Below, one piece after another: positions 1-54,067 of a stretch of 54,067 nt of DNA. The DNA comes from a virus. The notes under the pieces are model-generated. The model was not told the origin of the DNA. It saw nothing but the letters and a program-made list of their open reading frames with translations, and made no database searches. The stretch is taken from positions 1-54,067 of IMG/VR virus record IMGVR_UViG_3300032087_000618. One strand, written 5' to 3'. Numbering within the stretch: the first letter of the stretch is position 1; each line of letters opens with the position of its first letter. The translations under genes and the position numbers were made by a program.

Positions 1-1023
1 TTCTAACGTCATTTTGTCTACTGAAATAGTATCCAAGCCTTCTTCGGCTAAGTGCTGCCTGTAGTCTTCGGTTAACCATGTTAACTTCTCTAGCTCCTTT
101 ATTGTATAGGATTGATTGTAGGAACAAGCAGTATGTACGCACAGCCAAAAGAACCCTCGGTCATCCATAGCTTTGGTGTCGTTAAACTCAAACAAACCCT
201 TGGCTAGATCAGATCCTTGGAAGTTCAGGAATGGTTCTGTGTAGTACACTCTACCTCTGTAGTCACACTCTACCGCTTGATAGAATGTATTGTCACTTAT
301 TGCTCTTGCTTTGTTGAGGATAAACTTCATCTCAATTCGTTTTGACCTAGCTTTGTCACTCTTATCTTTCATATCTATAAACTTAGTGACGTTATCCCTA
401 AGAGCCTTAACAAGATCCACGTTAAGGCGCCAAGCAGTCCCTTGTAGCTTATCTAAGGCTTTGACAAAGGGTTGGTCAAGGCACTGGCTAAAGTCCCTCT
501 CAGAGGTCATACGTTTGATATACGGCCTCTTAGTCACTGGGTTTCTTAGCCCAGTTATCTTCGGGAATCTTCGGAAGCTAGTACCAGTTAAGGTAGCCTT
601 CTCGAAATCCTCAGGGATATCCCCAAGTAACTCCCAGTTCTCTGTTAAAAATATAACATATGGCGCACGATATCCTTCGTACTCTCGTTCAATCTCTATG
701 AACTTAAGCTTAAGGAATGCTTCAATAAACAGATCACCTACTGCGAATAACTCTGTGTAAGAACTATTCTTGATACCCATTCGGGATAGTACTGCTAACC
801 CTATGGCCGTAGATGTAGCTGTTAGTTTGAAACTCTTACTGCTGTTGCGAGACCTTAGGAAGGTACTCTGAGCTGCTTGCACTGCACATATAGTCAGCTC
901 TTCATACTTTAAACCATAGTCCATATGCCGGTTCAAGAGTTCGATGCCCGAGTGATTCCTACCCCGGGCACCTTCTCTGTTACTTCTTATATACTCTGCT
1001 ACTGCATGTATAGCTCCAGCCAA
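1..1023 (-). CDS. T7-like single-subunit RNA polymerase, N-terminal part (cut by window edge)
   Basis: Reads as an open frame of about 341 codons that runs off position 1 and continues, on the circle, into the piece at 53014-54067. The stretch DYRGRVYYTEPFLNFQGSDL near residue 254 matches the T7 RNA polymerase DWRGRVY...NPQGND (DxxGR) region, followed by the equivalent of T7 YYWLKIHGA. Start choice: TTG at 1023, one base after the primase stop and six bases after an AGGAG. The DxxGR motif lies about 165 residues earlier than in T7, so the N-terminal promoter-recognition domain is clearly shorter. Role: transcription of phage middle or late genes. The 5' end in the sense of a true start is not certain, but no in-frame ATG occurs before residue 33. 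Confidence 0.9.
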   Translation of the reverse strand, partial: MAGAIHAVAEYIRSNREGARGRNHSGIELLNRHMDYGLKYEELTICAVQAAQSTFLRSRNSSKSFKLTATSTAIGLAVLSRMGIKNSSYTELFAVGDLFIEAFLKLKFIEIEREYEGYRAPYVIFLTENWELLGDIPEDFEKATLTGTSFRRFPKITGLRNPVTKRPYIKRMTSERDFSQCLDQPFVKALDKLQGTAWRLNVDLVKALRDNVTKFIDMKDKSDKARSKRIEMKFILNKARAISDNTFYQAVECDYRGRVYYTEPFLNFQGSDLAKGLFEFNDTKAMDDRGFFWLCVHTACSYNQSYTIKELEKLTWLTEDYRQHLAEEGLDTISVDKMTLE

Positions 1024-1024
1024 T

Positions 1025-8861: not shown

Positions 8862-9008
8862 TTAAGTCCTCTTTTCTTTTTCCTTATTAAGGCCGGAGGC
8901 CTTGGAATCTTTCTTAGTCTTTGACTTAGACCCAAAGATATTATCCCAAGCCTCATCGAACTTATTCCTATCAGGTATAGGTCTCGGTCTTGATCCTTTA
9001 CCAGACAT
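8862..9008 (-). CDS. Small conserved phage protein (48 aa)
   Basis: A 48-codon frame (ATG 9008, TAA 8862) begins MSGKGSRPRPIPDRNKFDEA and has WDNIFG in the middle, followed by a Lys/Ser-rich tail. Proteins of this form (MSxGSxPRPIPDRxxFxxxWDxIFG) are frequent in T7-like and other lytic phages, but I know no function. The stop lies right before the thyX ATG, with the AGGACT of its last codons acting as the thyX ribosome site. Confidence 0.8.
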   Translation of the reverse strand: MSGKGSRPRPIPDRNKFDEAWDNIFGSKSKTKKDSKASGLNKEKEKRT

Positions 9009-19126: not shown

Positions 19127-19141
19127 CCAGCCGAAGGCTGG
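19127..19141 (+). other. 6-bp hairpin with a three-base GAA loop
   Basis: CCAGCC-GAA-GGCTGG, perfect. No T-run follows on either strand, so not a terminator. Promoters of the N4 virion RNA polymerase are 5-7 bp hairpins with three-base loops and a purine at the loop centre; this element and the imperfect GGATCC-GAA-GGAGCC at 19659-19673 have that shape on the plus strand. Confidence 0.4.
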
Positions 19142-19794: not shown

Positions 19795-19817
19795 ATTATA
19801 GTACCTTATAGAGAGAG
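19795..19817 (+). promoter_or_regulatory. Putative phage promoter, rightward
   Basis: ATTATAGTACCTTATAGAGA followed by GAG matches the block at 10634 (minus) except for two or three bases. It points toward the terminase and structural genes. The end TATAGAGAGAG is similar to the initiation region of T7-class promoters. Confidence 0.55.
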
Positions 19818-21770: not shown

Positions 21771-21915
21771 GCTGGAAAAGTTTCCCCATTAGTCCTCCAG
21801 CTAACGTTGTGGTTTTCGGTGACATTCACGTTTCGGGAAAGAATAGAATAGGAACCCTATTTAATTTAATGATTGAATGATGGATTGTGTTAATCCAATA
21901 CAGAGGAACTTTAAA

Positions 21916-24132
21916 ATGCAAGAACCCGATGGATACATGGAAGCAGTAACTGATGAGGAATTGATGAACATCATTCACTCTGAAGTAGCTAACTCTCAAG
22001 GTAATTTCCTTGATAGCTCTGAGTTATCAGATGAGCGCGAGAAAGCTACATTCGAATATGCGATGCAGCCCCGAGGACACTTAGCTCCCCAAGGTGTATC
22101 AAAGATCGTGTCCTCGGACACCGTAGAGGCTATTGAGGGGTACTCAGCTGTACTTTCCGAGCTACTACTAAATAATAAAAAATTAGCAAAATTTATACCA
22201 TACTCTAATACTGCAAAAGGTGTACACGAAGCTCGAGTAGCTTCTGACGTTGTAAACTACTGCCTGTTCAAAAAGAACAAAGGCTGGGACCTTATCAACA
22301 CTTGGATGAAGTCAGCACTTCTTTGGAAGAATGCTGCAGTAGTCTGGGAGTACGTAGAGGATTACGACTGTACCTTTGAAGAGTATGAAGAGATCACACC
22401 CGAAGCTTTGGATGTATTACTAGCCGATAACGAAGTGGAAGTAGTAGGTGATCTATTTGTAAATGGGGTAGGTGTGTACGAAGATGTACGTATCAAGCGT
22501 ACCCATAATAAAAGTGGCATAAAGATCCGTAACATTGAACCGGAGTCTTTTATAATAAGCCAAGGTGCGTCTTCTATCCACGAAGCATCCTTCGTAGGTA
22601 TTAGAACAGAAATGACCCGATCAGAGATCCGTAAACAGTATCCTGATCATGCAATGAACATTGATTGGGACAACACAGCTCACGACAGCTATACGTTTGC
22701 CCAAGCTATTAATAATGAAAAAGCTGCCCGAAGGTCTGCTGTAGGACTGAGTAATATTAACTTTAACCCAGTTCAAGCATCAGAAGCAAACCAACTAGCT
22801 ACTGTCTTAGAGTGCTGGATGAGTGTTGACCGGGATGGCGATGGTATCGCAGAGCTTAAAAGATTTATCACAGTCGGAGATCATGTGCTCTTTGAAGAAG
22901 ATGTTGACTGTGTTCAAATCGCAGAACTTAAGGCTTTTGATATCCCACACGAGTGGGCTGGTCTATCTATGGCAGATATGACTCGACCTGCTACTCTGGC
23001 ATCTACAGCTATACTGCGTGGTTTTGTTGAGAATACTTACTTAACTAACTACTCCCCTAAGTTAGCTGATCCAAATGTGGTAGACTTTTCTGCATTGCAA
23101 AATATGAAGCCAAAACAAATTGTACCTACCAACGGAAACCCAGCAATGGCTATTAAGAACATGCCACCTGAGTCTCTGTCTACAGGTACAGTGCCTCTGC
23201 TTGAGTTCTTGCAGAAGCACAAAGAACAAGCCAATGGACTGTCAAAAGCAGCCCAAGGTCTTAATGATACTCTCTATGTGTCTGGGAACTCAGAACAGAA
23301 AGTATCTTCTGTGCAATCAGCAGCACAAACTCGCATTCAACATATCGCCCGAAGATTCATGGAAACCGGCTTAGCTGAACTCTGTGAAGGTGTGTATAAG
23401 ACGATGAAGATGGAAATGCGAACACAATCAGTTGGTTACTATGATCGTAATAACTTCTACAGTACAGTTGACATGAAAGATCTTCCAGATGAGATGATGT
23501 TACAAGTCGAGGCTGACGTAGGTGATGCAAGTAACAAAACTGTGTTAGGTAAAATGGCAATGATCGGAGACAAGGTATTACCTGCTCTAATGAAAGCAGG
23601 ATATCAGGGAGCAATAGATCCCACAGCTCCAGCATCAATTGCCTATAGAACCATTGAGGCATTAGGTGAAGATCCCTTAGACTACTTAGTAGACTACACT
23701 TCCGAAGAGTATAAGAAAACTTCAATGGAAGCCAAGAAGAAGCAAATGGCGCAAACTGAAAAGGCTAAAGAAGTAGCTGATCGAACTCAGCAGGCTAAGC
23801 TAGCTTTAGACCAAGCAAACGTAGATTATACGAATGTTCAGTCTCAGAACGCAATACAAGATAACCTTAAACAACTTGTAGTTGCTTTGGATAAATCATA
23901 TCAAGAATGGGCTAAGTTAAGTGTAACAGCACAAAAAGAAGGACTTGAAGTTCCACAACAACCTGATGTACAGGAAATGTACAAGATGGCTACGGAACTT
24001 GTTAATCAAACTATGACCCAGCCTAATGGAGGAAAACCTTCTACACCATCTCCGGAACAAGCTCAAAACCAACAGCTTACCCCAGAGATGATCCAAGGAT
24101 TCCTAAACCAGACAGGTGGAGGTATGATGTAA
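21916..24132 (+). CDS. Portal protein
   Basis: About 738 aa from the ATG at 21916, which has AGAGGAA at the right distance; an ATG at 21877 lacks one. Order and content fit a large P22/SU10-type portal: WEYVEDYDC, RDGDGIAELKRFITVGD, LADPNVVDFSALQNMKPKQIV, and a long Gln/Lys-rich helical C-terminus (KKKQMAQTEKAKEVADRTQQ) like the portal barrel, ending in a Pro/Gln-rich tail. It forms the dodecameric vertex through which DNA passes. The 145-base gap before it has a GCTGGA...TCCAGC inverted repeat but no gene. Confidence 0.88.
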   Translation: MQEPDGYMEAVTDEELMNIIHSEVANSQGNFLDSSELSDEREKATFEYAMQPRGHLAPQGVSKIVSSDTVEAIEGYSAVLSELLLNNKKLAKFIPYSNTAKGVHEARVASDVVNYCLFKKNKGWDLINTWMKSALLWKNAAVVWEYVEDYDCTFEEYEEITPEALDVLLADNEVEVVGDLFVNGVGVYEDVRIKRTHNKSGIKIRNIEPESFIISQGASSIHEASFVGIRTEMTRSEIRKQYPDHAMNIDWDNTAHDSYTFAQAINNEKAARRSAVGLSNINFNPVQASEANQLATVLECWMSVDRDGDGIAELKRFITVGDHVLFEEDVDCVQIAELKAFDIPHEWAGLSMADMTRPATLASTAILRGFVENTYLTNYSPKLADPNVVDFSALQNMKPKQIVPTNGNPAMAIKNMPPESLSTGTVPLLEFLQKHKEQANGLSKAAQGLNDTLYVSGNSEQKVSSVQSAAQTRIQHIARRFMETGLAELCEGVYKTMKMEMRTQSVGYYDRNNFYSTVDMKDLPDEMMLQVEADVGDASNKTVLGKMAMIGDKVLPALMKAGYQGAIDPTAPASIAYRTIEALGEDPLDYLVDYTSEEYKKTSMEAKKKQMAQTEKAKEVADRTQQAKLALDQANVDYTNVQSQNAIQDNLKQLVVALDKSYQEWAKLSVTAQKEGLEVPQQPDVQEMYKMATELVNQTMTQPNGGKPSTPSPEQAQNQQLTPEMIQGFLNQTGGGMM

Positions 24133-25921: not shown

Positions 25922-26953
25922 ATGGCTGCAACAATTTTTGTAACTACTGGTACTCTTTCTGAGAAGGAAGATCTGGCGAACTTTATCTCCATGATCTCTC
26001 GTGAAGAGACTCCATTCTTGTCATCTATTGGCAAAACCACAGCTAAGGCTATCTATCACGAGTGGCAAACTGATGAGCTAGTAGCTCCCGGTTCTGGTGC
26101 TGTTGCTGAAGGTTCTACCTTTGCAACTGTAGCTGCTGCACAAGCTGCTGGCGGTGACCGTACTCGTCTTGGTAACTACACTCAGATCAACTCTAAAACT
26201 GTACAGGTCTCTGGATCTAAGCGTGCTGTTGATCAGGCTGGCGTTGCTGACGAATATGCATACCAGCTGAAGAAGCGTGGTACTGAGCTTCGTCGTGACC
26301 TCGAGCACGATGCTATCCACAGCTTCCACAGCAAGAACGGTTCTGGAACTCGTACTATGGGTGGCTATCAGGCTTACTGTAACGATGCCTCTCTCGTAGT
26401 AAACGGTGGTGAAACTGGTGCTTACACTGCTCCAGGTACTACTGGCGTAGGTACTGCTGGTACTATTAACCGTGGTGCTTCAGATGCTAACCTTAACGAC
26501 ATTGAGCTAAGCCAAGTTGATGACGTTATGCAAGCTATCTACGAAGCTGGCGGTAAAGCATCTACTTTGATGACTTCACCTCTAAACAAGCGTACCTTGT
26601 CTTCTAAAGCTCACGCTACTGGAAACAACACTGTACGTAACGTAGACGACACCGGTAAGATCCGTCAGAGCATTGAGTTGTTCGACAGTGACTTCGGTGA
26701 GATCCGCATTGTACCTAACTACATTATGGGTCTTGCACACAACACTGGAGCAGACGCTACTACTAACTCTGCTAACTACTGTGCGCTAGTATATGATCCC
26801 TCGTTCTTCAAGGTTGCTACTCTGCGTCCTCTTCAGGAAACTGAAGTTGGTCAGCAAGGCGATAGCACTATTGGACAGATCGTGGAAGAGTGTACTCTTG
26901 CAGTAACCAACCCTAAAGGTTGTGGCATGATCGTAGGTCTAGGCGGTAGCTAA
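25922..26953 (+). CDS. Major capsid protein (SU10-like, HK97 fold)
   Basis: 343 aa. The N-terminal pattern ISREETPFLSSIGKTTAKAIYHEWQTD and the later LKKRGTELRRDLEHDAI, TMGGYQAYC and STIGQIVEECTLAV match what I know of the SU10/DUF5309 coat family. Hundreds of copies form the shell. Codon use (many C-ending codons) is distinctly different from neighbours, as expected for the most highly expressed gene. A strong terminator follows at once. AAGGAAA precedes the ATG. Confidence 0.92.
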   Translation: MAATIFVTTGTLSEKEDLANFISMISREETPFLSSIGKTTAKAIYHEWQTDELVAPGSGAVAEGSTFATVAAAQAAGGDRTRLGNYTQINSKTVQVSGSKRAVDQAGVADEYAYQLKKRGTELRRDLEHDAIHSFHSKNGSGTRTMGGYQAYCNDASLVVNGGETGAYTAPGTTGVGTAGTINRGASDANLNDIELSQVDDVMQAIYEAGGKASTLMTSPLNKRTLSSKAHATGNNTVRNVDDTGKIRQSIELFDSDFGEIRIVPNYIMGLAHNTGADATTNSANYCALVYDPSFFKVATLRPLQETEVGQQGDSTIGQIVEECTLAVTNPKGCGMIVGLGGS

Positions 26954-40717: not shown

Positions 40718-43345
40718 ATGGCTAACGATTTAAAAACAATGTCTGACTTGTTCATGGGTTTAATGCACGACATTGATGACGATGAAGACAAAAAGAAAGG
40801 TCTTATACCCGGAACTAACATTCCGTTGCCAGACCCTAACAGCGTAGTCCCACCTGTTCTAGATCAGTTCCAAACACCTCCACCTAAAGCACCCTACCAG
40901 GATGCAGGGGAGTACATGCGGAATTATTTTGCTAGCAATCAAGAAGCTTTAGCTAACAGGGAGCCTATACCCAGAAAAGATATGTTAAGGGCTGATGGTA
41001 CCACTAAATCTGCTCAAGGATTCTTAGGTCCATTCCCAGACCAGTATGGCAAGATGATGACAGAGCAAACCATTGGAGTTGAAATAGACGGTAAGGAAGT
41101 ACAAATGCCAGCTATAGTTCCAACTACTACTCCAGATGAAATAGAGCTACTGGCTTCTGGTAATGTTAACTGGCAAAGCCCACGGGGTCAATTGATCCAA
41201 GATAAAGCCGTAGCTAACTACAGAGATCGAGTTAGTAGAGGCTTAAGCCCTTACTATCAGGATGGTGAAGGTGATGTACCTTCAGTACAAGAAGTGCCTA
41301 AACCAGCTGAAGTAGGTGGACCAGCTTATAGCTATGGTAACTTAGGTGTTAAGCCAGTTAGTACTGTGCTAGACTTAAATGATCCTAATCTGTATGATCC
41401 TTCTACAGGTAATTTAAAACCTGAGTATCAAAAACAAGCTGAAGCTCAATTTGACCCAAATAACTTAGTAGAAGTAGGTGGACCAGCTTATAGCTATGGT
41501 AACTTAGGTGTTAAACCTCAACGTGAGGTCCCTGAATTACCATTTAGTTATAACGTAGAAGATATTCTAAACAAAACCGCTTCAGATTACATACCTAAAC
41601 CTGAACCTACTTTTGGTCAACAAACTGATTTACCTACTTGGCTTACTAGTCCAATTGATGCTATGCGTGCAAGTCTAATGCCGGCAGCTATGGCTAATGA
41701 TCAAGCTAGGATTGACTTTTTAAAAGAACAAGTAGCTAAGGGTAACATGGATCCTGCGGCTCTTAAAGAGGTTGAACGTTTAGAGGAACGAATTAAAAAT
41801 AGTCAAAAGACAATTGATACCTACGAAGCAGAAAAACTTGCAGATAAAACGTACAAGGTTCAAAGGTTACTTGATGCAGGTCTTGTTGTTGAAGCTAGAA
41901 AGTTAGCTGACGAGTTAGGTGTAGACTTTAATACAATTGATAGCGGTACGAAATTAACTATCCCTGATAGCCCTATGATTGGATTAGGTGGTGTACCTAA
42001 GCCTGAGCCTGAACCTGAGGTAAGACCTCCATTAAGGGTTGTAACCACAGAAGAAACAGAAGCTTCAGGTGAACTTATTGGTAGCGACACTTCTAAGCAA
42101 GTTGATGAAAGCCTCAAGGTCTCAGGTGTACAACCTGGGGGTAAGGTTGTTACAACAACTAATACAGAAACAGAGGAAGAGGAAGTAGTAGTCGTTGACG
42201 AAAACGGTGATGAAAAACCCGGATTCCTTAAAAGCCTATGGAACGGCATTAAAGACATTGCTAAAGAAGGGTTTGAAGATCCGTCTTTACGTAGAGCTTT
42301 ATTTGCTTACACTGCCTCAAGAGTCTTAGGCTATGATGGAGTAACCCTAGCTTCTGCTGTTCTTGAGAATGAATGGCAAAAGCAAGCTGCTCAGGCTAAA
42401 GCTGATCGTGAATTAGAAAAACTTTATGGTGAAAAGCAAGCCAAACTAATTCTAGATAAAAGGGTAGACCCTACTAAAGTGTTTACTGTGTATGATAGTC
42501 AAACTAAAACTAACCTTACAGGCTCAACTAGTAAAGATGGTACATTGTTTTACCCAGATAATCCATCAGTCTTTGGGATCGAAGCAGGGTCACCTGTTGA
42601 CTTATCTAAGCTAAGAACTTTTGATGATGGTAGGTTTGAACCTCAAGCTGGTAAAACTATGGCTGAACTCCAAGGTGAGTACCTCGAGTTTGCAGGAAAC
42701 AAAGCTAAGGCTATTATAGCTCAAATAAAACAACGTAACTCCTCTATGGAGTCTACGCAGTTGGATGATTTAGTTTCACAGATGCAAGCTGCAACTAATG
42801 AAAATATTTTATCAGAACCTTTGATGGCGTTCTTATCAACCTTACCAGCAGGTGTAGATCCTAATGATAAGTTTGTTAGGGAAGCAGCTGTTAATGGTAT
42901 CAGAGAGTGGCTTAAATCCTTTGAAAGTGGTCAGACTGTCGATAGTAAAGACTTAGTTGGATTCCTTGATGCTCAACGTATGAAGCTTGATTTAACATCA
43001 AACGGAATACCTCAGGATTACTTTAAGATACCTGCAGATGAAAAGGGAGAAGCGCAAGTTGGTAACAATGCTATTTCTGTAATAATGAATGGTATTGAAA
43101 ACAGCCCTTATGCTAAAGACTTAGGATTAAGTACCCCAATTATTTTATCTAAGATGGCTGACATCTATGGCAAGAAAGTCATTAATGAAAAAGGCTTCCA
43201 AGGCAGAATGAATGGTTACTCTAAAGATTCATTTAGCGAAGGTGATAAGTCTAAGTTTGTATCTCCGTTCTTTGCTTTTGTTCAAAAATCATTTGCTTCA
43301 GACAATGAAGACATAGCAGAGTTAATGGCTGAACTTAAAAAATAA
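40718..43345 (+). CDS. Large internal virion protein (875 aa)
   Basis: Acidic/Pro-rich first part, including a segment RADGTTKSAQGFLGPFPDQYGK with TIGVEIDGKEVQMPAIVPTT that recurs in phage virion proteins, a duplicated 14-residue motif VGGPAYSYGNLGVK (encoded by a 44-base exact direct repeat at 41309 and 41471), a helical stretch near residue 340 (ALKEVERLEERIKNSQKTID), and an acidic linker (TETEEEEVVVVDENGDE). C-terminal 300 residues are helical. No enzyme motif seen. Likely core protein ejected with the DNA. Confidence 0.7.
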   Translation: MANDLKTMSDLFMGLMHDIDDDEDKKKGLIPGTNIPLPDPNSVVPPVLDQFQTPPPKAPYQDAGEYMRNYFASNQEALANREPIPRKDMLRADGTTKSAQGFLGPFPDQYGKMMTEQTIGVEIDGKEVQMPAIVPTTTPDEIELLASGNVNWQSPRGQLIQDKAVANYRDRVSRGLSPYYQDGEGDVPSVQEVPKPAEVGGPAYSYGNLGVKPVSTVLDLNDPNLYDPSTGNLKPEYQKQAEAQFDPNNLVEVGGPAYSYGNLGVKPQREVPELPFSYNVEDILNKTASDYIPKPEPTFGQQTDLPTWLTSPIDAMRASLMPAAMANDQARIDFLKEQVAKGNMDPAALKEVERLEERIKNSQKTIDTYEAEKLADKTYKVQRLLDAGLVVEARKLADELGVDFNTIDSGTKLTIPDSPMIGLGGVPKPEPEPEVRPPLRVVTTEETEASGELIGSDTSKQVDESLKVSGVQPGGKVVTTTNTETEEEEVVVVDENGDEKPGFLKSLWNGIKDIAKEGFEDPSLRRALFAYTASRVLGYDGVTLASAVLENEWQKQAAQAKADRELEKLYGEKQAKLILDKRVDPTKVFTVYDSQTKTNLTGSTSKDGTLFYPDNPSVFGIEAGSPVDLSKLRTFDDGRFEPQAGKTMAELQGEYLEFAGNKAKAIIAQIKQRNSSMESTQLDDLVSQMQAATNENILSEPLMAFLSTLPAGVDPNDKFVREAAVNGIREWLKSFESGQTVDSKDLVGFLDAQRMKLDLTSNGIPQDYFKIPADEKGEAQVGNNAISVIMNGIENSPYAKDLGLSTPIILSKMADIYGKKVINEKGFQGRMNGYSKDSFSEGDKSKFVSPFFAFVQKSFASDNEDIAELMAELKK
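41309..41352 (+). repeat. 44-bp exact direct repeat, copy 1
   Basis: Identical to 41471-41514, 162 bases apart, in frame; both copies encode EVGGPAYSYGNLGVK. Recent internal duplication. Confidence 0.9.
41471..41514 (+). repeat. 44-bp exact direct repeat, copy 2
   Basis: Second copy of the repeat at 41309-41352, within the same reading frame of the 875-aa virion protein. Confidence 0.9.
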
Positions 43346-43371: not shown

Positions 43372-46300
43372 ATGAGCTACATTATAAATCAAAACCAAGA
43401 AGAAGAAGAGTTGGAGCCTATAGAAGGATCTCAAGCCGACTTAACCCCAGAGGCCCCATCGGAAGAAAAGAAAGTCTACCACGGGGCTCAGGCTGTAGAG
43501 CAGGTCTCTCAAAACATTGGAAGACCTTTGACTTATGCTGAGCAAAGAGTTGTAGAAGAGGAGGGGTACGTTGCTACTCCATACTTGGACACTAAAGGTA
43601 TTCTAACTCAAGGGGTAGGTCAGACTGGTGAGTGGATTGAAAAAGGCTTTGAGGCTGCTTTCCAGCATCATGTTGAAAGAACTGAACGTAGAATACCTAA
43701 CCTTAAAGAGTTGCCTGATACATTGCAAGCTGAGTTAATTCAAGCAGAATACAGGGGAGACTTAGGTCAATCCCCTACATTCTTAAAATTGTTTAACCAA
43801 GGTTTTTATCACACAGCTGCCGAAGAGTTCTTAGACCACAAGGAGTACAGAGAGTCTAAAGAAAAGGGCAGTGGTGTGCATAAGCGCATGAAAAGGGTAT
43901 CAGATGCGGTAGCTATGTTTGCTTCTGGAGAAACAGTAAAGGGTGAAGCAGTACCTGAGGCTGCTCGCTTTGAAACCGATTACAATATCGGAACCTCAGG
44001 CTTTGTTACAGTAGATGGAGATACATTTAAAAACAAAGAAACTGGAGTAAAGATCCGTTTAGGTGGAATTGATCTAGCTGAGACTAATAAAGTTGTTGCT
44101 GACAAAGGTTTTATTCGAGGAGAGGGTGGGGGTGACGTAACTAAAGTTATAGTCTCTGCTCTTTTTAATAAATATGGCTTTACAAACCCAGTAATAACTG
44201 ATGAAAAAGATAGCTATGGTAGAAATATTGGTGATATGGTAGATGATCAGGGTAATTCTGGTACGGATTTCCTTATTGCTTCCGGCATTGCTACTCCAAC
44301 GTTTATTGGTAATACAAAAGAAACTATGTCTGACGAGGAATACTCTCGTTATGTCTATAATATGGGACAAAGGGCTATCAGAGACCCTAAAAAACCTAAG
44401 ACTGACATAGAATTAGCTGCTGAACTGATAAGAACTGCAGAATATGCACCCACTAACGGGCAATTTGTAGCAAAACAGCTAGCTTTTAACGAAGCAGAGT
44501 TTGCTTTGATGCCTGAGTTGTTCTCAGGTGTGGTATTACGTAACAAAAATGCTACATTTGATAACAGATCTAAGACACCTTACTCTCAATCCTTTGATAA
44601 TGCTTTAGAAATGGTTAGAAACTCTTTCTTCCAGATAGCTTCTATGGGATTAGACGTAGCTGGCTTTGATGAAGCTGAAGCTTACATGCAAGGTCGGGTT
44701 GATTATAGTAAAAGCAGACTGAAAGACATGCCTAAGGTACGTTTAGACTATAAAGATGTAGATTGGACTAACTTAGACCAAATAGGGGAGTACTTAGGTG
44801 CTAACCTTGCAATGTCCTTACCCTTTATGGGTGTAACTGCAGCTTCACTGTTGCTAGCAGGCCCAACCGGAGGTGCTAGTTTATCTGCACCTGTTATGAT
44901 GTACACTGGTCTTATTATTGACGAAATGCCGGGAGAGCTTGAAGATAAAAGCTATACTTCTGCTGTCGTAGGTGGGTCAATAGCTGCTGCTTTAGATGTC
45001 TTTGGTCTTAGAGGAGCTTTAGGTCTTCTTAAACCTTCTCAGTTTATGACTGGAGAAGCTAAAGAGGCTGCTATCGAGGCTGTTCAAAATGCTAAAGGTG
45101 AATCACTACAACGTATCATATCTGTACTAGGTAAGGAAGCAGGTGATTCAGCTACTACAGGCGTACTAACTAGAGAACAAGCTGAGCTTGCCCTTGCAAG
45201 AAGCAGTAAGCGTCAGATTGCAGCATTGTCTGCAGGTGTTAAGGAAAAAGTAGACCAACAACTACGTAAAAGCGTATTGTTAAAACAGTTTACTAAGGAC
45301 CTTACAGCTGGTGCAGCTTTTGAGGGCAGTACGGAAATGCTTCAAGAGCTTACCCAGTATACTGCAGTAGTTATAGGATCAGATGAAGTATGGAACTTCG
45401 ATAAACTCCAAGACAGACTGGCTAATGCTTTAGTTGCTGGTGGGCTTATGGGTGCTGGTTTTGCTGCACCCGGATCTGTTTGGGAAGCTGGTGCATGGAA
45501 AGATGCTAGCGTAGCTATGGCCGAGTATGATAAAAGATACGATGAGGCTGCTACAACTTGGAAAGAAGAAGAAGTTGAACAGTTTGGTAAGGTAAGAGAC
45601 CTTGATGAAGCACTTGATGCTGAGTGGGATGAAGTTTCACAGAGAGAAGGTAAGCCCCTAGTAAAGAAAGGTGCTAAGCTTCCTGAAAACTTCGATCAAT
45701 TGTCCTTAGAAGAGCAGGCTGATATCCTTATGGGATCTGGTGGTCCTGTGATTAGGCTTGAAGAGTATGCTGATAAAGGTGAAGAACGTAGGAGTGCAAC
45801 ACCTAGGTCTGATAAACTAGTTGATATGTTTAAAGACCCTGTAGCTGCCCTACGTACTGCATTAGATACTCGGATGACTGTTGACTTACTTAATCAAAGT
45901 CCTTCTGCTAGGTTGATTTATTCCATGTTAGGTGGAAGAAAGAACCAAGTGCAAGCTGGATTAGACTTTACTTCAGATAAGGTTGCAAGTTACACAGGCT
46001 TTGAAGGTATGCTTCGTGGTGGTACTATACAAAACATACTTAATACTTTCCAGACAGAAGGTAAAAGGTATGGTAGGCAACGTACAGAAGTGTCTGCACT
46101 TATCTACGATTTCTATGGTACAGTTATCAGGCCTATTACTCAGCCTAAAGGTAAGAAAAGTAGCAACAAAGAGCGTCTAACAGGACCTGAAGTTATTGCA
46201 GCTATTGATTGGGATAATTTACCAACTAGGTTTCAAAAGAACTCTCAGGCTCTAAAGGATATTGTAACAGACTTGTATGCTGTCGATAATGCTATGTGGA

Positions 46301-48111
46301 AAAACATAACTGCTAGGCAGAGTCAAACATCTGAGCCGTTAATAGGTAAGCTACAGGATCACATCTTTAGAAGTAAGGCTTTCTTGAAAGAGAAAATAGC
46401 TAAGGATAAAGATACTTTTATTAAGTTACTTATGCAGGAGAAAGGTCTTAGCAAGGAAAATGCAGAGGCTGTTACAGATACTATACTAGATAACCCAGAT
46501 GCTAACTCATTAGAGGATGCATTTGATTTGACTAGAGGTGGTCTATACCCTGCAGGATTCAAGCGTAGATCATTAGACATTGCAGATAGTAAGGCTTTTG
46601 ATGGGTTCTTGCAGAACAATATCTTTGATAACCTTGAGCAGAACATGAAAAGCTCTGCACGATACATGACATCTTTGAAGTTCTTAGGTAAGAATAATAA
46701 ACTAATGGATCAGTTGCTAACTAAAGTTCACGATGAGTTAGTTGATAAGGGTAACCCTGATGCTGATGAGATAGTGCAAGACCTAGCTATGCACATAAGG
46801 GACCTTGTAAACGCTGACTCAGGTAACTACAGACGTATTGAAAGCGAAGCTGTACGTGGTGCTCAGAAGTTTATGACAGTAGTTGGTGTACTAACCATGC
46901 TACCCCTTGCTGCCCCTATGTCCTTAGTGGAGTTTGCACTAGCCCCTATGAATGTAAACATCCAAGCATTGAACAAAAACATTGGTTCTCTGGGTATGAT
47001 ACTTGGTAGAGAAATGTTTGAGTACTTTGCTGAGATAGGTAGGATCATGGGTGTGGCACCTAAGCGTAGTAACTTTGATACTGCTATTAAAGCTCGTAAG
47101 GAAAGAATGGGTGATGATCCAAGATACGTAGGTATCGAAGATCCCCGAGGACTTCTTAAGCGCATAGGTATGCTACAGCAGAAAACTGGTCAGGCTACCC
47201 TGGTTGGTGTATCTGAGACAAGTGAGTTTACTAAGGCTTTGATGGATAACTTCTTCAAGATTATTGGTTTGACTAGTGTAACTAATGCTACTCGTACATT
47301 GCGTGCTGCATTCTTTAACGACTTCTTAATCAGTAACTTGGATAAAATCCATTCAGCTGGTCTTTTGCAAACCAATGAAGTTGTTGAAGCTCGTCAGATG
47401 CTTGAAGAGTTTGGTATACCTGTAGACACTATGATTGATTTATCTATAGCAGTTAAGGCTGACCCAGATAACCCCCAGCTTAGAGCACAGTGGGAACGTC
47501 AGTTTGATAATGGATTGTTAAACTTTGTCAATGGTGCAGTACCTATGCCTCAGGCTATGACACGACCATTGGTATACAGTGATCCACACTTTGCTATGTT
47601 TATGCAGTTTCAAGGGTTTATTTCTCAGTTCACAGCGGTACATATTCCAAGGATTTGGAAGACAATCAATAAAGCTACCCCCGGCATGAAGTACTCTATG
47701 TTTGCTTCTTTAGCATCCATGTTAATGCTAGGGTATGCTGCTCAGTATCTCAAGGATCTTATTAAGTTTGGTGAAGGATCTCCATACTTATCAGATAATG
47801 AGAAATACTTACGTGCTCTGTATAGCTCAGGTTTACTTGGTACGACTGAAAGGATAATTAGTAATAACTTTTTATTTCCTTTATACGAAGATAGAAGCAG
47901 GTCACTTGTAGAAGCTACTTGGAACTTAGTAGCCGGAGAAGCCCCTGCATCTAATATTGTTGAGAACATATATGGATTAGGACAAGGTGCATTGGATGAT
48001 AACTCAAGAAAGATAGTTAAGTCTGGTCTTTCTTTGACACCTTTCTCACCTTTAAAACATAGAATATACGATGAACTAGTCCAAAACAATTGGATAACAG
48101 GAGATGAATAA
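43372..48111 (+). CDS. Internal virion protein with lysozyme and SNase domains
   Basis: 1579 aa. Residues about 50-185 are a T4-type (GH24) lysozyme: Glu64, Asp73 and Thr79 in EEGYVATPYLDTKGILTQGV keep the 9- and 6-residue spacing of T4 lysozyme Glu11-Asp20-Thr26. Residues about 208-330 are a staphylococcal-nuclease domain: VDGDTFK (Asp215, Asp217), Arg229, GIDLAET (Asp234, Glu237) and YGR (Arg284), all catalytic positions present. The rest is helical with hydrophobic segments near residues 480-510, 1170-1190 and 1445-1465 able to span a membrane. Expected to be ejected, open peptidoglycan and help form the DNA channel; the nuclease target is unknown. TAATG overlap with the next gene. Confidence 0.88.
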   Translation: MSYIINQNQEEEELEPIEGSQADLTPEAPSEEKKVYHGAQAVEQVSQNIGRPLTYAEQRVVEEEGYVATPYLDTKGILTQGVGQTGEWIEKGFEAAFQHHVERTERRIPNLKELPDTLQAELIQAEYRGDLGQSPTFLKLFNQGFYHTAAEEFLDHKEYRESKEKGSGVHKRMKRVSDAVAMFASGETVKGEAVPEAARFETDYNIGTSGFVTVDGDTFKNKETGVKIRLGGIDLAETNKVVADKGFIRGEGGGDVTKVIVSALFNKYGFTNPVITDEKDSYGRNIGDMVDDQGNSGTDFLIASGIATPTFIGNTKETMSDEEYSRYVYNMGQRAIRDPKKPKTDIELAAELIRTAEYAPTNGQFVAKQLAFNEAEFALMPELFSGVVLRNKNATFDNRSKTPYSQSFDNALEMVRNSFFQIASMGLDVAGFDEAEAYMQGRVDYSKSRLKDMPKVRLDYKDVDWTNLDQIGEYLGANLAMSLPFMGVTAASLLLAGPTGGASLSAPVMMYTGLIIDEMPGELEDKSYTSAVVGGSIAAALDVFGLRGALGLLKPSQFMTGEAKEAAIEAVQNAKGESLQRIISVLGKEAGDSATTGVLTREQAELALARSSKRQIAALSAGVKEKVDQQLRKSVLLKQFTKDLTAGAAFEGSTEMLQELTQYTAVVIGSDEVWNFDKLQDRLANALVAGGLMGAGFAAPGSVWEAGAWKDASVAMAEYDKRYDEAATTWKEEEVEQFGKVRDLDEALDAEWDEVSQREGKPLVKKGAKLPENFDQLSLEEQADILMGSGGPVIRLEEYADKGEERRSATPRSDKLVDMFKDPVAALRTALDTRMTVDLLNQSPSARLIYSMLGGRKNQVQAGLDFTSDKVASYTGFEGMLRGGTIQNILNTFQTEGKRYGRQRTEVSALIYDFYGTVIRPITQPKGKKSSNKERLTGPEVIAAIDWDNLPTRFQKNSQALKDIVTDLYAVDNAMWKNITARQSQTSEPLIGKLQDHIFRSKAFLKEKIAKDKDTFIKLLMQEKGLSKENAEAVTDTILDNPDANSLEDAFDLTRGGLYPAGFKRRSLDIADSKAFDGFLQNNIFDNLEQNMKSSARYMTSLKFLGKNNKLMDQLLTKVHDELVDKGNPDADEIVQDLAMHIRDLVNADSGNYRRIESEAVRGAQKFMTVVGVLTMLPLAAPMSLVEFALAPMNVNIQALNKNIGSLGMILGREMFEYFAEIGRIMGVAPKRSNFDTAIKARKERMGDDPRYVGIEDPRGLLKRIGMLQQKTGQATLVGVSETSEFTKALMDNFFKIIGLTSVTNATRTLRAAFFNDFLISNLDKIHSAGLLQTNEVVEARQMLEEFGIPVDTMIDLSIAVKADPDNPQLRAQWERQFDNGLLNFVNGAVPMPQAMTRPLVYSDPHFAMFMQFQGFISQFTAVHIPRIWKTINKATPGMKYSMFASLASMLMLGYAAQYLKDLIKFGEGSPYLSDNEKYLRALYSSGLLGTTERIISNNFLFPLYEDRSRSLVEATWNLVAGEAPASNIVENIYGLGQGALDDNSRKIVKSGLSLTPFSPLKHRIYDELVQNNWITGDE

Positions 48112-51100
48112 TGGCTAAAGGTCGAAGACTATCAGGTCAAGTAGCGCCACTTACAGAGGAAGAAAAAGCAGCAGCTCGAGAAGCAGAGGTAGCTAAGATC
48201 AAAGCAGGTTTACTAGACCAAGCAAATACAGCTGGTACTTTAGGATTAGAGGGACAAGATACAGGGCCACAGGAAGGCCCACCTATTGCACTTCCATCTG
48301 AAACTATTGCAGAAGATCTTAGAAATGTACAGGTTACTCCTCAGGAATCTCAGTTAGCTACGCAAGTAGAGACTGAGGCTACCCCTGAGGCTACACCTCA
48401 ACCTCAGCAAACCCCTATAGCCCAAGCGGTTTCACAAGCAAACCAAGAAAAGTTTGGTCTAACCCCTGAGCAACAAATAGAACGTGAGAATATTAGAGTC
48501 CCCTCTGTCATGGAAGCAGCAGGGGTCGCTAGGGATCGTCTAAACTTACGTAATCAGATTGGAGATAATAATGCTGATCGATTTGATTTAATGGCAGAAA
48601 AGTCTGACTACACCCACCCTGTTACTATGAGCGTTACAGACGCAATTCAGTTTGACCCTGTGCTAGAAGTATCAGATCCTGGGTTTCAGGAAGGACTTGA
48701 GGTACTAGATAAAGAAGCTTTTGAGGTAGAAGATAAAGGTAAAAGACCCTTGCGTGTAAATACTCAAGGTGCCCCTTTAAGACTTAATAGATCTAACATA
48801 CTACTATCAAATAAAGTTCTTGGTATTGGTATAAAGAATCCTAACTTTGATCCCACTGCTATTAAACTTAATGATAAAGGTGGCGTGGCTAACTATGAGG
48901 GAGCTAACCAACAGCCTTTTATACTGGATACTCGTTATATACCTACAATAGCTGCTGTAATTGAAGACATGCTTGTTAAGACTCAAAGAGATATCGAGTT
49001 TGAATCTGGGGCTAACTTAGACCAACCCCCTCTAGATATCGAAATGGATTCTGTTGACCCTACAGCTGCTGAAGTTTATAGGGAACAAGCTGGAAGGGCT
49101 GCACTGGGTAGATCTTTATTCCAAGCAATACGAAGAGAGAAAGCATACTTTGCTGGTGAGCCAACAGACACTTACATGGATGACTTTAAGAATACTACAC
49201 CAGAAACTTTTGAAGCTATTGGTGAAATGTTCTTAGATTATTATGCTACAGTTGCTCCACATATGGTCACTGTTACAAAAGGAACTTATAACACTGGAAC
49301 AGGTGAAGCTACTCAAAGGTCTTATGCTTTATCACCTGAAGCTTATATTGAGTTACAAGAATCTCGTGTAAAAGTACCAGACTTTAAGGCTAAGTTTCTT
49401 ACAATGAAACCTGAACTTGGCACTATACCCTTCGAAGGTATGCTGTTGAAGACAGAGACAGGTGTTATACCTACACCTAAGTCACAACCATTAGTTGAAG
49501 CTAAGATTAATGCTAGTCAAGTTACTAATGTTATTGATGGTAGAAGAGGTTCACTGGCTTTAATGCTTGGTGTACATGCATATGCTACTGCGGTAAAGAA
49601 ACCAGAGGCTAATATAGAATCCGCTAACTTTACTCTTAATGCTATGGATATGGGTCCTGCCCGTATGAATAAGATTAGAAGTATCTATGCTACTCAAAAA
49701 CTTAAGCGTGATATTGCTGACGAAAAGATAAAAGAAATAGACAGGAAGTCTGAACTTAGCGTTGGTGACTCAATACGCAGACAGCAGCTGGAAGCAGAAA
49801 AGCTTTTTAGAGAAGACTTGATGAAGAAGTATGAGTTAGGGAAACCTCTTGATGAAACAGGAACTAATGAGCTACAGGCTTTGTATTATCAACATGCTAA
49901 TAAAAACTTAGAGACCCTTAACTTCATTGCTAGGAATGGTGATGCACCTTTCTATCACACATTTGTAACCCAGAAAGGTAGCCAGCGTTTAACTACAGCT
50001 CAGTACTTATCTTTCCAGAATAGCCACTTGATGCGTAACGTCATTGGCTCTGGTGCTAAGGTTGAGATTAAACCGCTAAGAGGTGGTGAGATAGAGGATA
50101 ACTTCTTATGGTCTGCTAGTACTATCTTCTTTGGTGGTGGTGGTAAACTAAAAGAAGCGGCAATTAGTGATGCTTTGTTTAACATAAAAGAAAAGACACC
50201 TACTTACCAGAACGTTGTTAAGCTAGGTGGTAGGTTAAAAGAGTACTTAGGGATGTTTGATAAAGAGGGTGCGGTTAACTCCTTGAAGAACCTAAAGACT
50301 ACCCCTCAGGGTATCTCAGGTCTTAATGGGTTGAATGGTACATTACCACAGCCTATGCTTCAGGATAAAGAGCTAATGACTTTCTTAGAAGCCTTAAGTA
50401 ACTCTAAGGATTCTCACAAGCATATGATACAGCATCTCGATTATATGATGGCAATGGCTGAGTATGACCAAGCTATGAAGGATGGTACATCTTTCCACAC
50501 TTCTGTTAATGGGGTGGAGATTGACGGTATCTCTAACGGTCTTGCTAGTTTCTTTGTTATGCTAGGTCAGTACAATAAACTGCCTCGTATAGGTGTCACT
50601 AGGGCTGAAGGTTCTGAAGAAGTACTTGGTATGTGGAAAGACTTACCAAATGTTTTGACTGTACCAGAGGCATACGCAGGTGATATTAGGGAAACTTTGG
50701 CTGAAACTCTTCGTTTAAACATGGGCAACGAGGTATCCTCTCTTGCTATGTTTGACAGAAACATAATGGAAGAGTTTGGTTATAGTGAGCAAGACATACC
50801 TAAGCTTCGTAAGATATTAGAGATAGCACTTAAGAAAGAAAACAAAGCAACTTTCCTTAAAGCCCCTATACTTACTTTCCCTTATGGGCAAGAAACTAAA
50901 AATCTAATTGGTTCTATCTACGAAACTATTGTAGCAGATCCAGAGTTATACAAAGAAATTGAATCTTTCTTTGGTAATTTACCTACGGGTGCTAGGTTCT
51001 TAGATATGATTAGGATGCAGGCTCTTAGGTCTACTTTAGGTTATGATGTAATGTTATTCTCTAATCTAGCAAAAGCTGCTGTTGACTTTTCAAGTATCTA

Positions 51101-52097
51101 TAACAGGTACATGTCTGTGACAAACCCAGCAGGCGGTGAGTCTATGTTTGTAGGTAAAGAAACAAAACGTACAGAACGTACAGTTGACCTTAAAGCTACA
51201 TCCAGAAGAGACAAGAAGACAGGTAGAGCAAAACCTTTGATAGCTGCTATGGAAAGACAAAAAGCTAAAGCTGAAGCTGCAGGTGATCTTGAGTCAGCTA
51301 CTAAGTACTCTCAACTTATCAAGGAAACTAAGTCCCCTAGACCCATGGAGATTGCTAAGAAGAAATCATTCCTTAGCCCTTTGACTGCACGTAGAGGTAT
51401 TAGTGGGGGTGTTGCTCATGGTTCTGTATTACCTAACATTGCTCAAGGACTTGACGGTGCTACGGTAATTAAGACTTTTAGTGGCCCTGCTTGGAATGCT
51501 CTAAGTAAAACAGCTGACGGTGAACCTTGGGTTCTTCCTGTATATGATGCTTTCATTACAGATCTTAGATCAATGGGTAAGATGACAAGCATTATAAACT
51601 CTCAGTGGTTTAACATGACATCTGAAACTACTATCATTGATGAAATGGTACAAGGGTTGGATAGGAATGTTAAGCAAGGGAGGAAGATATTTAGTAAGCT
51701 AGCGCAGGAAGGTGGTGTGATTGATGAGGCAGAGCATGGAGCTCTTGCAGATCATGTAGTAAACATGCTGACTTATGCTAAACTTTCAGAGGAAGAAAGA
51801 GGTGAAGCCCAGTCTCTTATTCAGGCGTTAACTGGTGAGTATGTTAGCGGTGGTGTTCAAACAAAACAATCAAGGAACTATCAGAATCTTTATAGTGCCC
51901 AGTTGTTTTTAGAGCAGACTGTCTTTTTCAATACACAAAGAGATATTACTAGATTAGCTCAGAAGTCTAAAGAAGGCAGAGCAAAGATAAGAAGTAAAGT
52001 TAAAGCTGACAAAGAAGGTTATGGACATGAAGTCCTGCAGTATGCTATGGATGACATAGGCCTTGATAAGTCTGCAATGGCATTATTAGATACATAA
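48111..52097 (+). CDS. Putative virion RNA polymerase (N4 vRNAP-like), 1328-aa internal protein
   Basis: 1328 aa; Pro/Gln/Glu-rich first 120 residues, then helical. From about residue 600 the single-subunit RNA polymerase motifs appear in order: TQKGSQRL (620-627, weak T/DxxGR), VEIDGISNGLASFFVMLGQY (motif A, Asp805; T7 has AFDGSCSGIQHFSAML), KAPILTFPYG (motif B, Lys917 and Tyr925; T7 KRSVMTLAYG with the same spacing of eight), GSVLPNIAQGLDGATVIKTF (T7 GIAPNFVHSQDGSHLRKTV), and PVYDAFITD (motif C, Asp1146; T7 IHDSFGT). Asp-to-Lys spacing is 112, almost that of N4 virion RNA polymerase (559 to 670). Last structural gene, followed by a terminator. The family call is mine and needs structure or profile tests. 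Confidence 0.7.
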   Translation: MAKGRRLSGQVAPLTEEEKAAAREAEVAKIKAGLLDQANTAGTLGLEGQDTGPQEGPPIALPSETIAEDLRNVQVTPQESQLATQVETEATPEATPQPQQTPIAQAVSQANQEKFGLTPEQQIERENIRVPSVMEAAGVARDRLNLRNQIGDNNADRFDLMAEKSDYTHPVTMSVTDAIQFDPVLEVSDPGFQEGLEVLDKEAFEVEDKGKRPLRVNTQGAPLRLNRSNILLSNKVLGIGIKNPNFDPTAIKLNDKGGVANYEGANQQPFILDTRYIPTIAAVIEDMLVKTQRDIEFESGANLDQPPLDIEMDSVDPTAAEVYREQAGRAALGRSLFQAIRREKAYFAGEPTDTYMDDFKNTTPETFEAIGEMFLDYYATVAPHMVTVTKGTYNTGTGEATQRSYALSPEAYIELQESRVKVPDFKAKFLTMKPELGTIPFEGMLLKTETGVIPTPKSQPLVEAKINASQVTNVIDGRRGSLALMLGVHAYATAVKKPEANIESANFTLNAMDMGPARMNKIRSIYATQKLKRDIADEKIKEIDRKSELSVGDSIRRQQLEAEKLFREDLMKKYELGKPLDETGTNELQALYYQHANKNLETLNFIARNGDAPFYHTFVTQKGSQRLTTAQYLSFQNSHLMRNVIGSGAKVEIKPLRGGEIEDNFLWSASTIFFGGGGKLKEAAISDALFNIKEKTPTYQNVVKLGGRLKEYLGMFDKEGAVNSLKNLKTTPQGISGLNGLNGTLPQPMLQDKELMTFLEALSNSKDSHKHMIQHLDYMMAMAEYDQAMKDGTSFHTSVNGVEIDGISNGLASFFVMLGQYNKLPRIGVTRAEGSEEVLGMWKDLPNVLTVPEAYAGDIRETLAETLRLNMGNEVSSLAMFDRNIMEEFGYSEQDIPKLRKILEIALKKENKATFLKAPILTFPYGQETKNLIGSIYETIVADPELYKEIESFFGNLPTGARFLDMIRMQALRSTLGYDVMLFSNLAKAAVDFSSIYNRYMSVTNPAGGESMFVGKETKRTERTVDLKATSRRDKKTGRAKPLIAAMERQKAKAEAAGDLESATKYSQLIKETKSPRPMEIAKKKSFLSPLTARRGISGGVAHGSVLPNIAQGLDGATVIKTFSGPAWNALSKTADGEPWVLPVYDAFITDLRSMGKMTSIINSQWFNMTSETTIIDEMVQGLDRNVKQGRKIFSKLAQEGGVIDEAEHGALADHVVNMLTYAKLSEEERGEAQSLIQALTGEYVSGGVQTKQSRNYQNLYSAQLFLEQTVFFNTQRDITRLAQKSKEGRAKIRSKVKADKEGYGHEVLQYAMDDIGLDKSAMALLDT

Positions 52098-53013: not shown

Positions 53014-54067
53014 TTAGCTAAAGAAGTAGTCAGAACTAATGACTTCCTCTATCTTAAGATCACCCAGCTCTGGTTGCTTAACTGAGTAACCCTTACGGTC
53101 TTCTAGGATTAAAGATTCTATCTTATCAAAGAAGTTTTCTACATTGTACATCATAGCAAACTGCCACTTAGTATGCTCTAGTAGTTTGTCTACATCACAA
53201 GCATGGGTTGAGAACGAATCATGTACTGCCCCAAAGCTCCCAGGGAATGATTCGATAACCTTAGCCATATGTGATGCATCCATAGAGTGTACAAAGTTAG
53301 GCGAACAGCCTGATGCAAACGACCTTCGGCAGGGTATAGCATTACCTTCTTTATTTATTACAGGTATCTTTATGCTATGACCTATCTGCCCTAGGCCACC
53401 TATGGTACTGCGTAGTGTCAAGTTCTTTTGTTTCCATACTTCGTATAGCACAGGGAAACCTGACGGTGTAGTCCACTGAAGGCATGTCTCTCCACTTTCA
53501 AGAACATAGTCTGTTATTTTCTGGAGAAACTTCATGGTCTTTAGGGGACCTACACAGGTATCATTAATGGCTAGTATAAGGTTCTTTGCCAGAACATCAC
53601 AGTCTTCCTTTGTGATCTTATACTTCCTATGATAACCCTCTGTCTTACAATCGTAAAACATATTCTCTGCAATCTTTCTTTGACCTGCAGAGTACGCCCT
53701 TGTCATTGAGCCACGTTTAGCTATGCCCTTTCTGATAGCTTTCATAGGCATATTTCTTTGCTCAAACCACTCAGGCATTCTATCAATCAAACGTTTCGCA
53801 ACCTTTACATAGAAGTCTTTTTGTATACTCTGAGGAACAATTGAGACTAACTTACCAGCCTGACTGTCCTTAGACATCGCAGCCAGATGCTGCCAGCCAT
53901 TGTTACTTCCATCTACAGGTATAGGTAGTCTCGAATGATAGACTCCCTCGGACTCTACGTAGCCTTTGAGATCAAGACAACATGCCAGTAGGGACACTGG
54001 CTTTTCTGCTTCCATCCTGAACTTCATCTCTTTTGCATCCTGTATCAGTTCTTTCTGATTGTGGATT
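53014..54067 (-). CDS. T7-like single-subunit RNA polymerase, C-terminal part (cut by window edge)
   Basis: About 351 codons, entering at 54067 and ending with stop at 53014. Palm and finger motifs of T7 RNA polymerase are complete: PVDGSNNGWQHLAAM (motif A Asp), AKRGSMTRAYSAGQ (motif B Lys and Tyr), SGCSPNFVHSMDASHM, AVHDSFSTHA (motif C His-Asp), and the C-terminal SDYFFS like T7 SDFAFA. Together with 1-1023 the protein is about 695 aa, smaller than T7 (883). The reading frame at 54067 does not join the frame at position 1 exactly: two bases plus probably about five codons are absent by comparison with T7. Confidence 0.93.
   Translation of the reverse strand, partial: IHNQKELIQDAKEMKFRMEAEKPVSLLACCLDLKGYVESEGVYHSRLPIPVDGSNNGWQHLAAMSKDSQAGKLVSIVPQSIQKDFYVKVAKRLIDRMPEWFEQRNMPMKAIRKGIAKRGSMTRAYSAGQRKIAENMFYDCKTEGYHRKYKITKEDCDVLAKNLILAINDTCVGPLKTMKFLQKITDYVLESGETCLQWTTPSGFPVLYEVWKQKNLTLRSTIGGLGQIGHSIKIPVINKEGNAIPCRRSFASGCSPNFVHSMDASHMAKVIESFPGSFGAVHDSFSTHACDVDKLLEHTKWQFAMMYNVENFFDKIESLILEDRKGYSVKQPELGDLKIEEVISSDYFFS

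Follow-up and report, generated by a model that had tools for sequence, protein, structure and literature searches.

Virion RNA polymerases (vRNAPs) are commonly regarded as giant proteins and as a hallmark of the Schitoviridae, in which the enzyme of reference genomes is a single chain of 2842 to 3820 amino acids (aa), as reported in a survey of the family (PMC10654107). T7 RNA polymerase, which is synthesized inside the cell, shares the single-subunit fold, with its catalytic D, K, Y, and D in the same order, and is a second point of comparison. It recognizes a double-stranded promoter, and N4 vRNAP uses promoters with a hairpin on the template strand, in which a C-G pair closes a loop with a 5' G and a 3' A and the enzyme contacts the central purine of the loop (PMC4496689). 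The DNA analyzed here, referred to as the window, is the whole of IMG/VR virus record IMGVR_UViG_3300032087_000618 (54,067 bases). The final member of its rightward structural genes codes for a 1328-aa protein, and we conclude, with a probability of roughly 0.8, that this is a natural compact N4-type vRNAP that is ejected and performs early transcription from hairpins. Judged by sequence comparison, the protein is homologous to the polymerase domain of N4-type vRNAPs, though diverged from it. It is probably a single-subunit right-hand polymerase, close in size to the N4 mini-vRNAP domain with short extensions added. A preliminary description of the window, made from the letters alone, had proposed an N4-type identity for this protein, and the proposal is supported by a profile match and the catalytic residues and, less independently, by a fold search.

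The gene and the residues that carry this reading are given below. Row counts refer to an alignment of 39 sequences (A5), comprising 37 N4-type rows, the window protein, and a relative that is 75% identical to it (contig L006); the N4 residues named are found at those positions in the N4 sequence.

48111..52097, plus strand: gene for the putative compact N4-type vRNAP (1328 aa, no cysteine), from the open reading frame (ORF), a match to phrog_2206 (E 1.4e-4), and hhalign
49986..49988, plus strand: R626, candidate Arg of the T/DxxGR motif (N4 R424), Arg in 12/12 compact homologues, register uncertain by one residue
50034..50036, plus strand: R642, equivalent to N4 R440, conserved in 39/39 rows
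50523..50525, plus strand: D805, motif A Asp (N4 D559), in 39/39 rows and 12/12 compact homologues
50859..50861, plus strand: K917, motif B Lys (N4 K670), in 39/39 rows (37 of them pattern-retrieved) and 10/12 compact homologues
50883..50885, plus strand: Y925, motif B Tyr (N4 Y678), in 39/39 rows (37 of them pattern-retrieved) and 12/12 compact homologues
51546..51548, plus strand: D1146, motif C Asp (N4 D951), in 39/39 rows and 12/12 compact homologues

Profile comparison, which the preliminary description had recommended, gives the strongest evidence for homology. Six compact homologues match the 37 N4-type sequences with an hhalign probability of 99.4 and an E-value of 1.4e-21 over 722 columns (hhalign E-values are those of single comparisons), and they match the annotated vRNAPs of 15 phages with an E-value of 5.4e-19. 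The window and L006 proteins together reach a probability of 97.2 (E 4.1e-11; 487 columns, residues 610 to 1189), and the 1328-aa protein alone gives an E-value of 1e-9. Controls in the same comparison were ten other proteins from these phages, nine of them nonpolymerases and one the family A DNA polymerase, and the 1328-aa protein in reversed order; they returned E-values of 0.10 to 0.48. Two T7-family RNA polymerases gave E-values of 3.3e-5 (T7) and 0.022 (phage CRP-7). T7 RNA polymerase is further away in sequence, scoring 50.6 against the N4-type profile versus 89.4 for the 1328-aa protein alone. The match to PHROG 2206 ('virion RNA polymerase') covers residues 759 to 822; with this profile at an E-value of 1 or lower, 14 of 22 records matched, all eight CRP-7-type records were without a match, and among 14 control genomes a match was seen in one, Lactococcus lactis. 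The N4-type set derives from 80 IMG/VR loci with 74 usable domains, of which 48 remained after filtering at 75% identity and 37 were used in A5. Among these 80 loci, 35 open frames lie wholly within the locus; 32 of them are 3030 to 3763 aa long and the other three are 1493, 1936, and 2172 aa. We note that in one record (G003; locus L040/L052) the vRNAP is divided between two frames (1098 and 2172 aa), and a piece of the profile, 2029 to 2250, is out of order.

The motif positions in the preliminary description are accurate: D805 is in VEIDGISNG (motif A), K917-x7-Y925-G in KAPILTFPYG (motif B), and D1146 in VYDAFITD (motif C), so that the catalytic Asp, Lys, Tyr, and Asp of the N4-type motifs are all present. 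The distance from motif A to motif B is 112 residues, as it had also reported, compared with 111 in N4 (K670-D559) and 94 to 126 across the 80 IMG/VR loci. Residues 803 to 810 (EIDGISNG) conform to ExDGxxxG, described as the family filter of the Schitoviridae survey (PMC10654107). The T/DxxGR-like stretch, rated weaker at the outset, is indeed degenerate (KGSQR, including R626), and its register differs by one residue between alignments: Q625 is placed under N4 R424 in the 39-row alignment, and R626 falls in a column that is Arg throughout in the alignment of 12 compact homologues. R642 corresponds to a residue reported to stabilize the initiating nucleotide in N4 (R440; PMC4496689). None of the 15 annotated phage vRNAPs, which were not chosen by pattern, lacks the Asp of motif A, the Lys of motif B, or the Asp of motif C; the motif B Tyr is found in 13 and is Phe in the other two.

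Homologues were sought around SU10-type capsid genes. The SU10-type capsid protein was used to scan IMG/VR, and the best 80 of 543 loci were taken. Of these, 46 contigs were then searched, many of them short fragments; five have a match to the vRNAP profile and 10 code for a homologue of the 1579-aa protein encoded immediately upstream of the polymerase gene in the window. The ORF directly following this neighbor was taken from eight of the ten contigs (G041 and G063 were left out), and the eight products (G036, 1328 aa; G031, 1275; G062, 1216; G059, 1242; G044, 1272; G049, 1136; G045, 1183; G042, 1186) are all without cysteine. The window, L006, G036, G031, G062, and G059 proteins form a core set; the last four were found with a profile holding the window and N4-type rows, and their place after the neighbor is independent of that. 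The other four (G044, G049, G045, and G042) form a far set found by position alone, which matches the core with an E-value of 2.3e-14 and the N4-type sequences with an E-value of 4.7e-6. The G059 protein also matches PF00940 (E 6.2e-6 in a genome search and 0.0038 by hmmscan), in both cases below the curated cutoff. The preliminary description had tied its case to retention of the catalytic residues in homologues, and among 12 aligned compact proteins this holds for D805, Y925, and D1146, as well as R626 (12/12 each), but not fully for K917, which is kept in 10.

The most distant members include hypothetical protein gp33 (1235 aa) of Roseobacter phage CRP-7, which like the 1328-aa protein follows a homologue of the 1579-aa protein, lacks cysteine, and has a T7-like polymerase beside it. 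The CRP-7 proteins are linked to the window group through intermediates only (E 9e-11 to the far set, and from there 2.3e-14 to the core), with no direct profile link to the core (E 0.13). They differ further in having Arg at the position of the motif B Lys and no hairpin of the type described below, and CRP-7 gp34 lacks the lysozyme-type part of the 1579-aa protein, its match starting at residue 214. The accessible part of the CRP-7 paper names only a T7-like polymerase and does not call gp33 a polymerase (PMC6918029).

Structure prediction and superposition, also recommended beforehand, gave a polymerase-like model that ranks the N4 mini-vRNAP first, but at low confidence. An AlphaFold2 model built on A5 has a mean pLDDT of 52.5 and a pTM of 0.54. 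In a Foldseek search of the PDB the N4 mini-vRNAP (3c3l) is first, with an E-value of 1.5e-10, and the best 50 rows are all single-subunit polymerases; VIA-align to N4 mini-vRNAP 3c2p gives a Z-score of 18.0 (755 residues aligned, rmsd 6.0 A), compared with up to 16.5 for mitochondrial polymerase and 15.4 for T7 polymerase. The fold match is support rather than proof, since N4-type sequences, N4 included, were in the alignment behind the model, and because the model is weak the case for a polymerase is not rested on it. The outcome that would have spoken against a polymerase, a confident model with another fold, did not arise. AlphaFold2 on the CRP-7 group alone (seven sequences) was uninformative (mean pLDDT, 37.5).

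The genomic setting combines an SU10-type head, cysteine-free internal proteins, and a second RNA polymerase:

21877..24132, plus strand: SU10-type portal protein (PF23899, E 1.3e-112; phrog_1216)
25922..26953, plus strand: SU10-type major capsid protein (PF17236, SU10_MCP, E 7.4e-74; phrog_1328)
40718..43345, plus strand: 875-aa internal protein without cysteine, possibly a third ejection protein, from cysteine count and position
43372..48111, plus strand: 1579-aa internal protein without cysteine, residues 35 to 205 lysozyme-type (match to pVa5 vRNAP; PF00959)
53014..54067, minus strand: T7-like RNA polymerase (second, nonvirion), C-terminal part (PF00940, E 1.7e-50), frame open to the window end
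1..1024, minus strand: T7-like RNA polymerase, N-terminal part, a 341-residue open frame running off the record start

Both the SU10-like head and the additional T7-like polymerase had been recognized in the preliminary description, and these family matches bear them out. The portals of this phage and N4 share phrog_1216, whereas the N4 major capsid protein belongs to phrog_1357. The T7-like polymerase gene is split at the record ends (on the minus strand, the frame is open for 341 residues at the start of the record and for 350 at its end), and L006, G036, and G031 have an intact 698-aa gene where the window record is cut. No terminal repeat was found in the record, and with the cut falling inside a gene that is intact in its relatives, the window is probably a circularly permuted, nearly complete genome. 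Of 13 records, 11 also have a T7-like polymerase; the two without it are contigs of 33.6 and 23.2 kb.

The stop of the 1579-aa gene overlaps the start of the polymerase gene. The lysozyme-type part of the 1579-aa protein is 44% identical (E 5e-33) to residues 4 to 164 of the vRNAP of Vibrio phage pVa5 (Schitoviridae; 3344 aa), and PF00959 matches it below the cutoff (E 9e-4). The pVa5 enzyme also has no cysteine and has its own versions of the motifs (EIDGKTNG and KNPLMVIFYG); it matches the 1328-aa protein by BLASTP with an E-value of 0.011 and the six compact proteins by hhalign with an E-value of 2.2e-5 over 157 columns. Lysozyme and polymerase are on one chain in pVa5 but on two overlapping genes in the window, and this arrangement fits a relationship by fusion or fission between compact and giant forms and a lysozyme-type ejection protein, for which either direction is possible from the sequences. 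We note a weak endonuclease match (phrog_452, E 0.015) after the lysozyme-type part, at residues 226 to 318. The 875-aa protein has no family match of note in Pfam and PHROG searches.

The 875-, 1579-, and 1328-aa proteins contain no cysteine in 3782 residues, where about 37 would be expected from the 114 in 11,594 residues of the 37 other ORFs counted (among them ORF 290-760, probably no real gene). The same is true of N4 gp50, gp51, and gp52 and of CRP-7 gp33 to gp35 (3826 aa), and it has been suggested that proteins may have to lack cysteine to cross the tail and periplasm (PMC3715699). Together with gene position, the neighboring lysozyme-type protein, and the hairpin promoter candidates, this suggests that the 1328-aa protein is carried in the capsid and injected.

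In summary of its likeness to N4 gp50, the window enzyme shares the polymerase domain, the three motifs (A, B, and C) at almost the same A-to-B spacing, the lack of cysteine, a gene at the end of the structural genes, a T7-like second polymerase, and candidate hairpins that agree in loop type and closing pair. It differs in its size of 1328 aa, which leaves no room for the fused N- and C-terminal domains of N4, in the replacement of N4 R666 and K437, and in belonging to a phage with an SU10-type head and the lysozyme-type part on a separate protein. We therefore do not class it as a Schitoviridae gp50, as the giant size, the N4-type capsid, and an equivalent of R666 are all absent.

Candidate promoters were sought as hairpins of the pattern C-GRA-G with a perfect stem, and two were found:

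19127..19141 (center 19134), plus strand: CCAGCC-GAA-GGCTGG hairpin, a candidate promoter on the template strand of the leftward early genes
8889..8903 (center 8896), plus strand: AAGGCC-GGA-GGCCTT hairpin, a candidate promoter upstream of the T7-like RNA polymerase operon

These are the only two such hairpins in the window with a stem of at least 6, and both are on the template strand for leftward genes. Dinucleotide shuffles of the window reached two in 6 of 1000 cases, a figure that is partly post hoc because the pattern was chosen after the window hairpins had been seen. Downstream of the 8896 hairpin are a 212-aa gene and genes for ribonucleotide reductase (RNR), DNA polymerase, two unnamed proteins, primase/helicase, and the T7-like RNA polymerase. 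Records G036 and G031 each have exactly two stem-6 hairpins, with the identical sequence GAGCCC-GAA-GGGCTC and on the template strand, and G031 has one additional 5-bp C-GRA-G hairpin. The second G036 hairpin is 15 nucleotides (loop center to the listed GTG start) before a 183-aa ORF, which is followed by ORFs of 617, 610, 254, 179, 541, and 698 aa, the sizes and order seen in the window from RNR to RNA polymerase. A 14.5-kb part of the L006 contig has one hairpin with a stem of at least 6, GGAGCC-GGA-GGCTCC, at the place homologous to 8896; three pairs are changed on both sides, although as a homologue of the 8896 hairpin it is not an independent case. Across the window, G036, G031, and L006, 7/7 hairpins are on the template strand for the replication-side genes.

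Genomes with giant vRNAPs provide a reference for the pattern. The first 12 kb of N4 has only three sites with a stem of at least 5 (at 96, 565, and 4554), all on the template strand, which fit P1, P2, and P3; a single 5-bp site occurs in the 40-kb middle of the N4 genome. The site at 96 is a GAA-loop hairpin with the same closing pair as the 19134 hairpin. In N4-type genome G002 there are 12 C-GRA-G hairpins, all on one strand, and in G001 four GCC-GGA-GGC sites at 1.2 to 3.1 kb are on one strand, with three more elsewhere. Intrinsic terminators were considered as an explanation for the hairpins and rejected, as no U-run follows in the transcript direction. The stem base -8G, reported for N4 promoters (PMC3715699), was dropped as a criterion: it is C in the window hairpins and C or A in several of those of the two N4-type genomes.

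In the likely mechanism, the polymerase would be packed in the head with the two cysteine-free internal proteins encoded just before it, and would cross the tail and periplasm alongside the first DNA. It would then begin to transcribe, ahead of any need for the host polymerase, where hairpins (19134 and 8896) are extruded on the template strand. The operon that follows the 8896 hairpin includes the T7-like polymerase gene as well as those for RNR, DNA polymerase, and primase/helicase, so that the second polymerase would be turned on by the virion enzyme, giving an N4-like cascade in an SU10-headed phage. Of these elements, the homology, the catalytic residues, the gene position, the lack of cysteine, and the conservation of hairpins are observed in the sequences, and packaging, ejection, polymerase activity, and use of the promoters are inferred.

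Several observations weigh against this reading. For the enzyme, the 1328-aa protein has no Pfam match, and a sequence search of the PDB and a tblastn search of 50,697 phage records gave no match for it. The invariance of K917 and Y925 in the 37 N4-type rows is by construction, because a motif B pattern was used to collect those loci, and Arg replaces the motif B Lys in CRP-7 and L009, two of the 12 aligned compact proteins. N4 R666, the Arg four residues before the motif B Lys, is present in 37/37 other rows but is Ala913 in the window and Ser in L006, and N4 K437 is replaced by His639. The N4 residues that read the promoter loop (K114, R119, and W129) are not recognizable in the 1328-aa protein in the 39-row alignment, and their columns also vary widely among the N4-type rows. 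The structure model is of low confidence and was built with N4-type sequences, and the N4 capsid protein and the 370-aa scaffold of the window also lack cysteine, which is thus not specific to ejected proteins. For the promoters, the hairpin pattern was fixed on the window before the other family records were scanned, and 6 of 10 records (G062, G059, G044, G049, G045, and CRP-7) have no C-GRA-G hairpin, such that the rule is not family-wide; a search of these six for other repeated hairpins found nothing convincing. Hairpins with any 3-nucleotide loop are not enriched in the window (12, versus a mean of 13.9 in 20 shuffles), and a 48-aa ORF extends at its 3' end into the 8896 hairpin.

Some of these points suit a vRNAP descendant that is now mainly an ejection or internal core protein with an inactive polymerase, leaving the T7-like enzyme to do all phage transcription. 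The replaced R666 and K437 equivalents are in keeping with this, as are the Arg at the motif B Lys and the differing motif A context of the CRP-7 group and the complete T7-like polymerase gene beside the 1328-aa gene. However, both catalytic Asp residues and R642 are kept in 39/39 rows, D805, Y925, and D1146 are in all 12 compact proteins with the motif B Lys in 10, and template-strand hairpins are at the same gene position in the window, L006, and G036, and we regard loss of activity as unlikely. That the protein is an RNA polymerase produced late to work in the cell, without being packaged, is more doubtful still, given the location in the structural arm, the neighboring internal protein with a lysozyme-type part that in pVa5 belongs to the vRNAP chain, and the lack of cysteine, the proposed passage requirement (PMC3715699). 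That the protein is an ordinary internal virion protein of the T7 gp16 type with polymerase motifs by chance, as its place among large internal proteins and the empty single-sequence searches of Pfam, PDB, and phage records might suggest, is very improbable, being already contradicted by an E-value of 1.4e-21 over 722 columns with conserved catalytic columns when ten control proteins and the reversed sequence gave only 0.10 or worse.

Among the matches listed in the open-license PMC literature, we found no report of a compact vRNAP in an SU10-type phage. A 2083-aa vRNAP is on record for Alteromonas phage R22Y (PMC11705849), a vRNAP is claimed in the literature for the proposed family Poorviridae, and vRNAPs have been proposed for StenR_269 and Zobellviridae on the basis of size, cysteine absence, and helices (PMC10747016). 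The IMG/VR survey discarded candidates of less than 2,500 aa and required all seven N4-type hallmark genes for high-quality genomes (PMC10654107), and compact forms would thus have been missed. We lean slightly toward the view that the window represents an SU10-headed lineage with a complete N4-like cascade and a free mini-vRNAP, in which the compact form may be the ancestral or minimal packaged polymerase. A natural enzyme of near mini-vRNAP size raises the questions of what purpose the N- and C-terminal domains serve in N4 gp50, and whether a small polymerase can be packaged without them; the gp50 C-terminal domain is reported in a preprint to inhibit the enzyme (PMC12633501). The candidate early promoters and the cultured phage CRP-7 are available for direct tests.

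Three other features of the window are of note. A structural-arm protein (35855-36838, plus strand) has a Hint/Vint domain of the self-processing type (PF14623, E 1.6e-9). On the minus strand at 12070-14511 there is a pair of genes, S6 glutaminyl transferase-like (phrog_2599) and glutamine-fructose-6-phosphate aminotransferase-like (phrog_4736), that is metabolically unusual for a phage. Between the divergent gene arms, about 600 bases (19500-20110) are without an ORF of 100 aa and have many short CCTAAGG/AGGG-like words, perhaps marking a packaging or promoter region.

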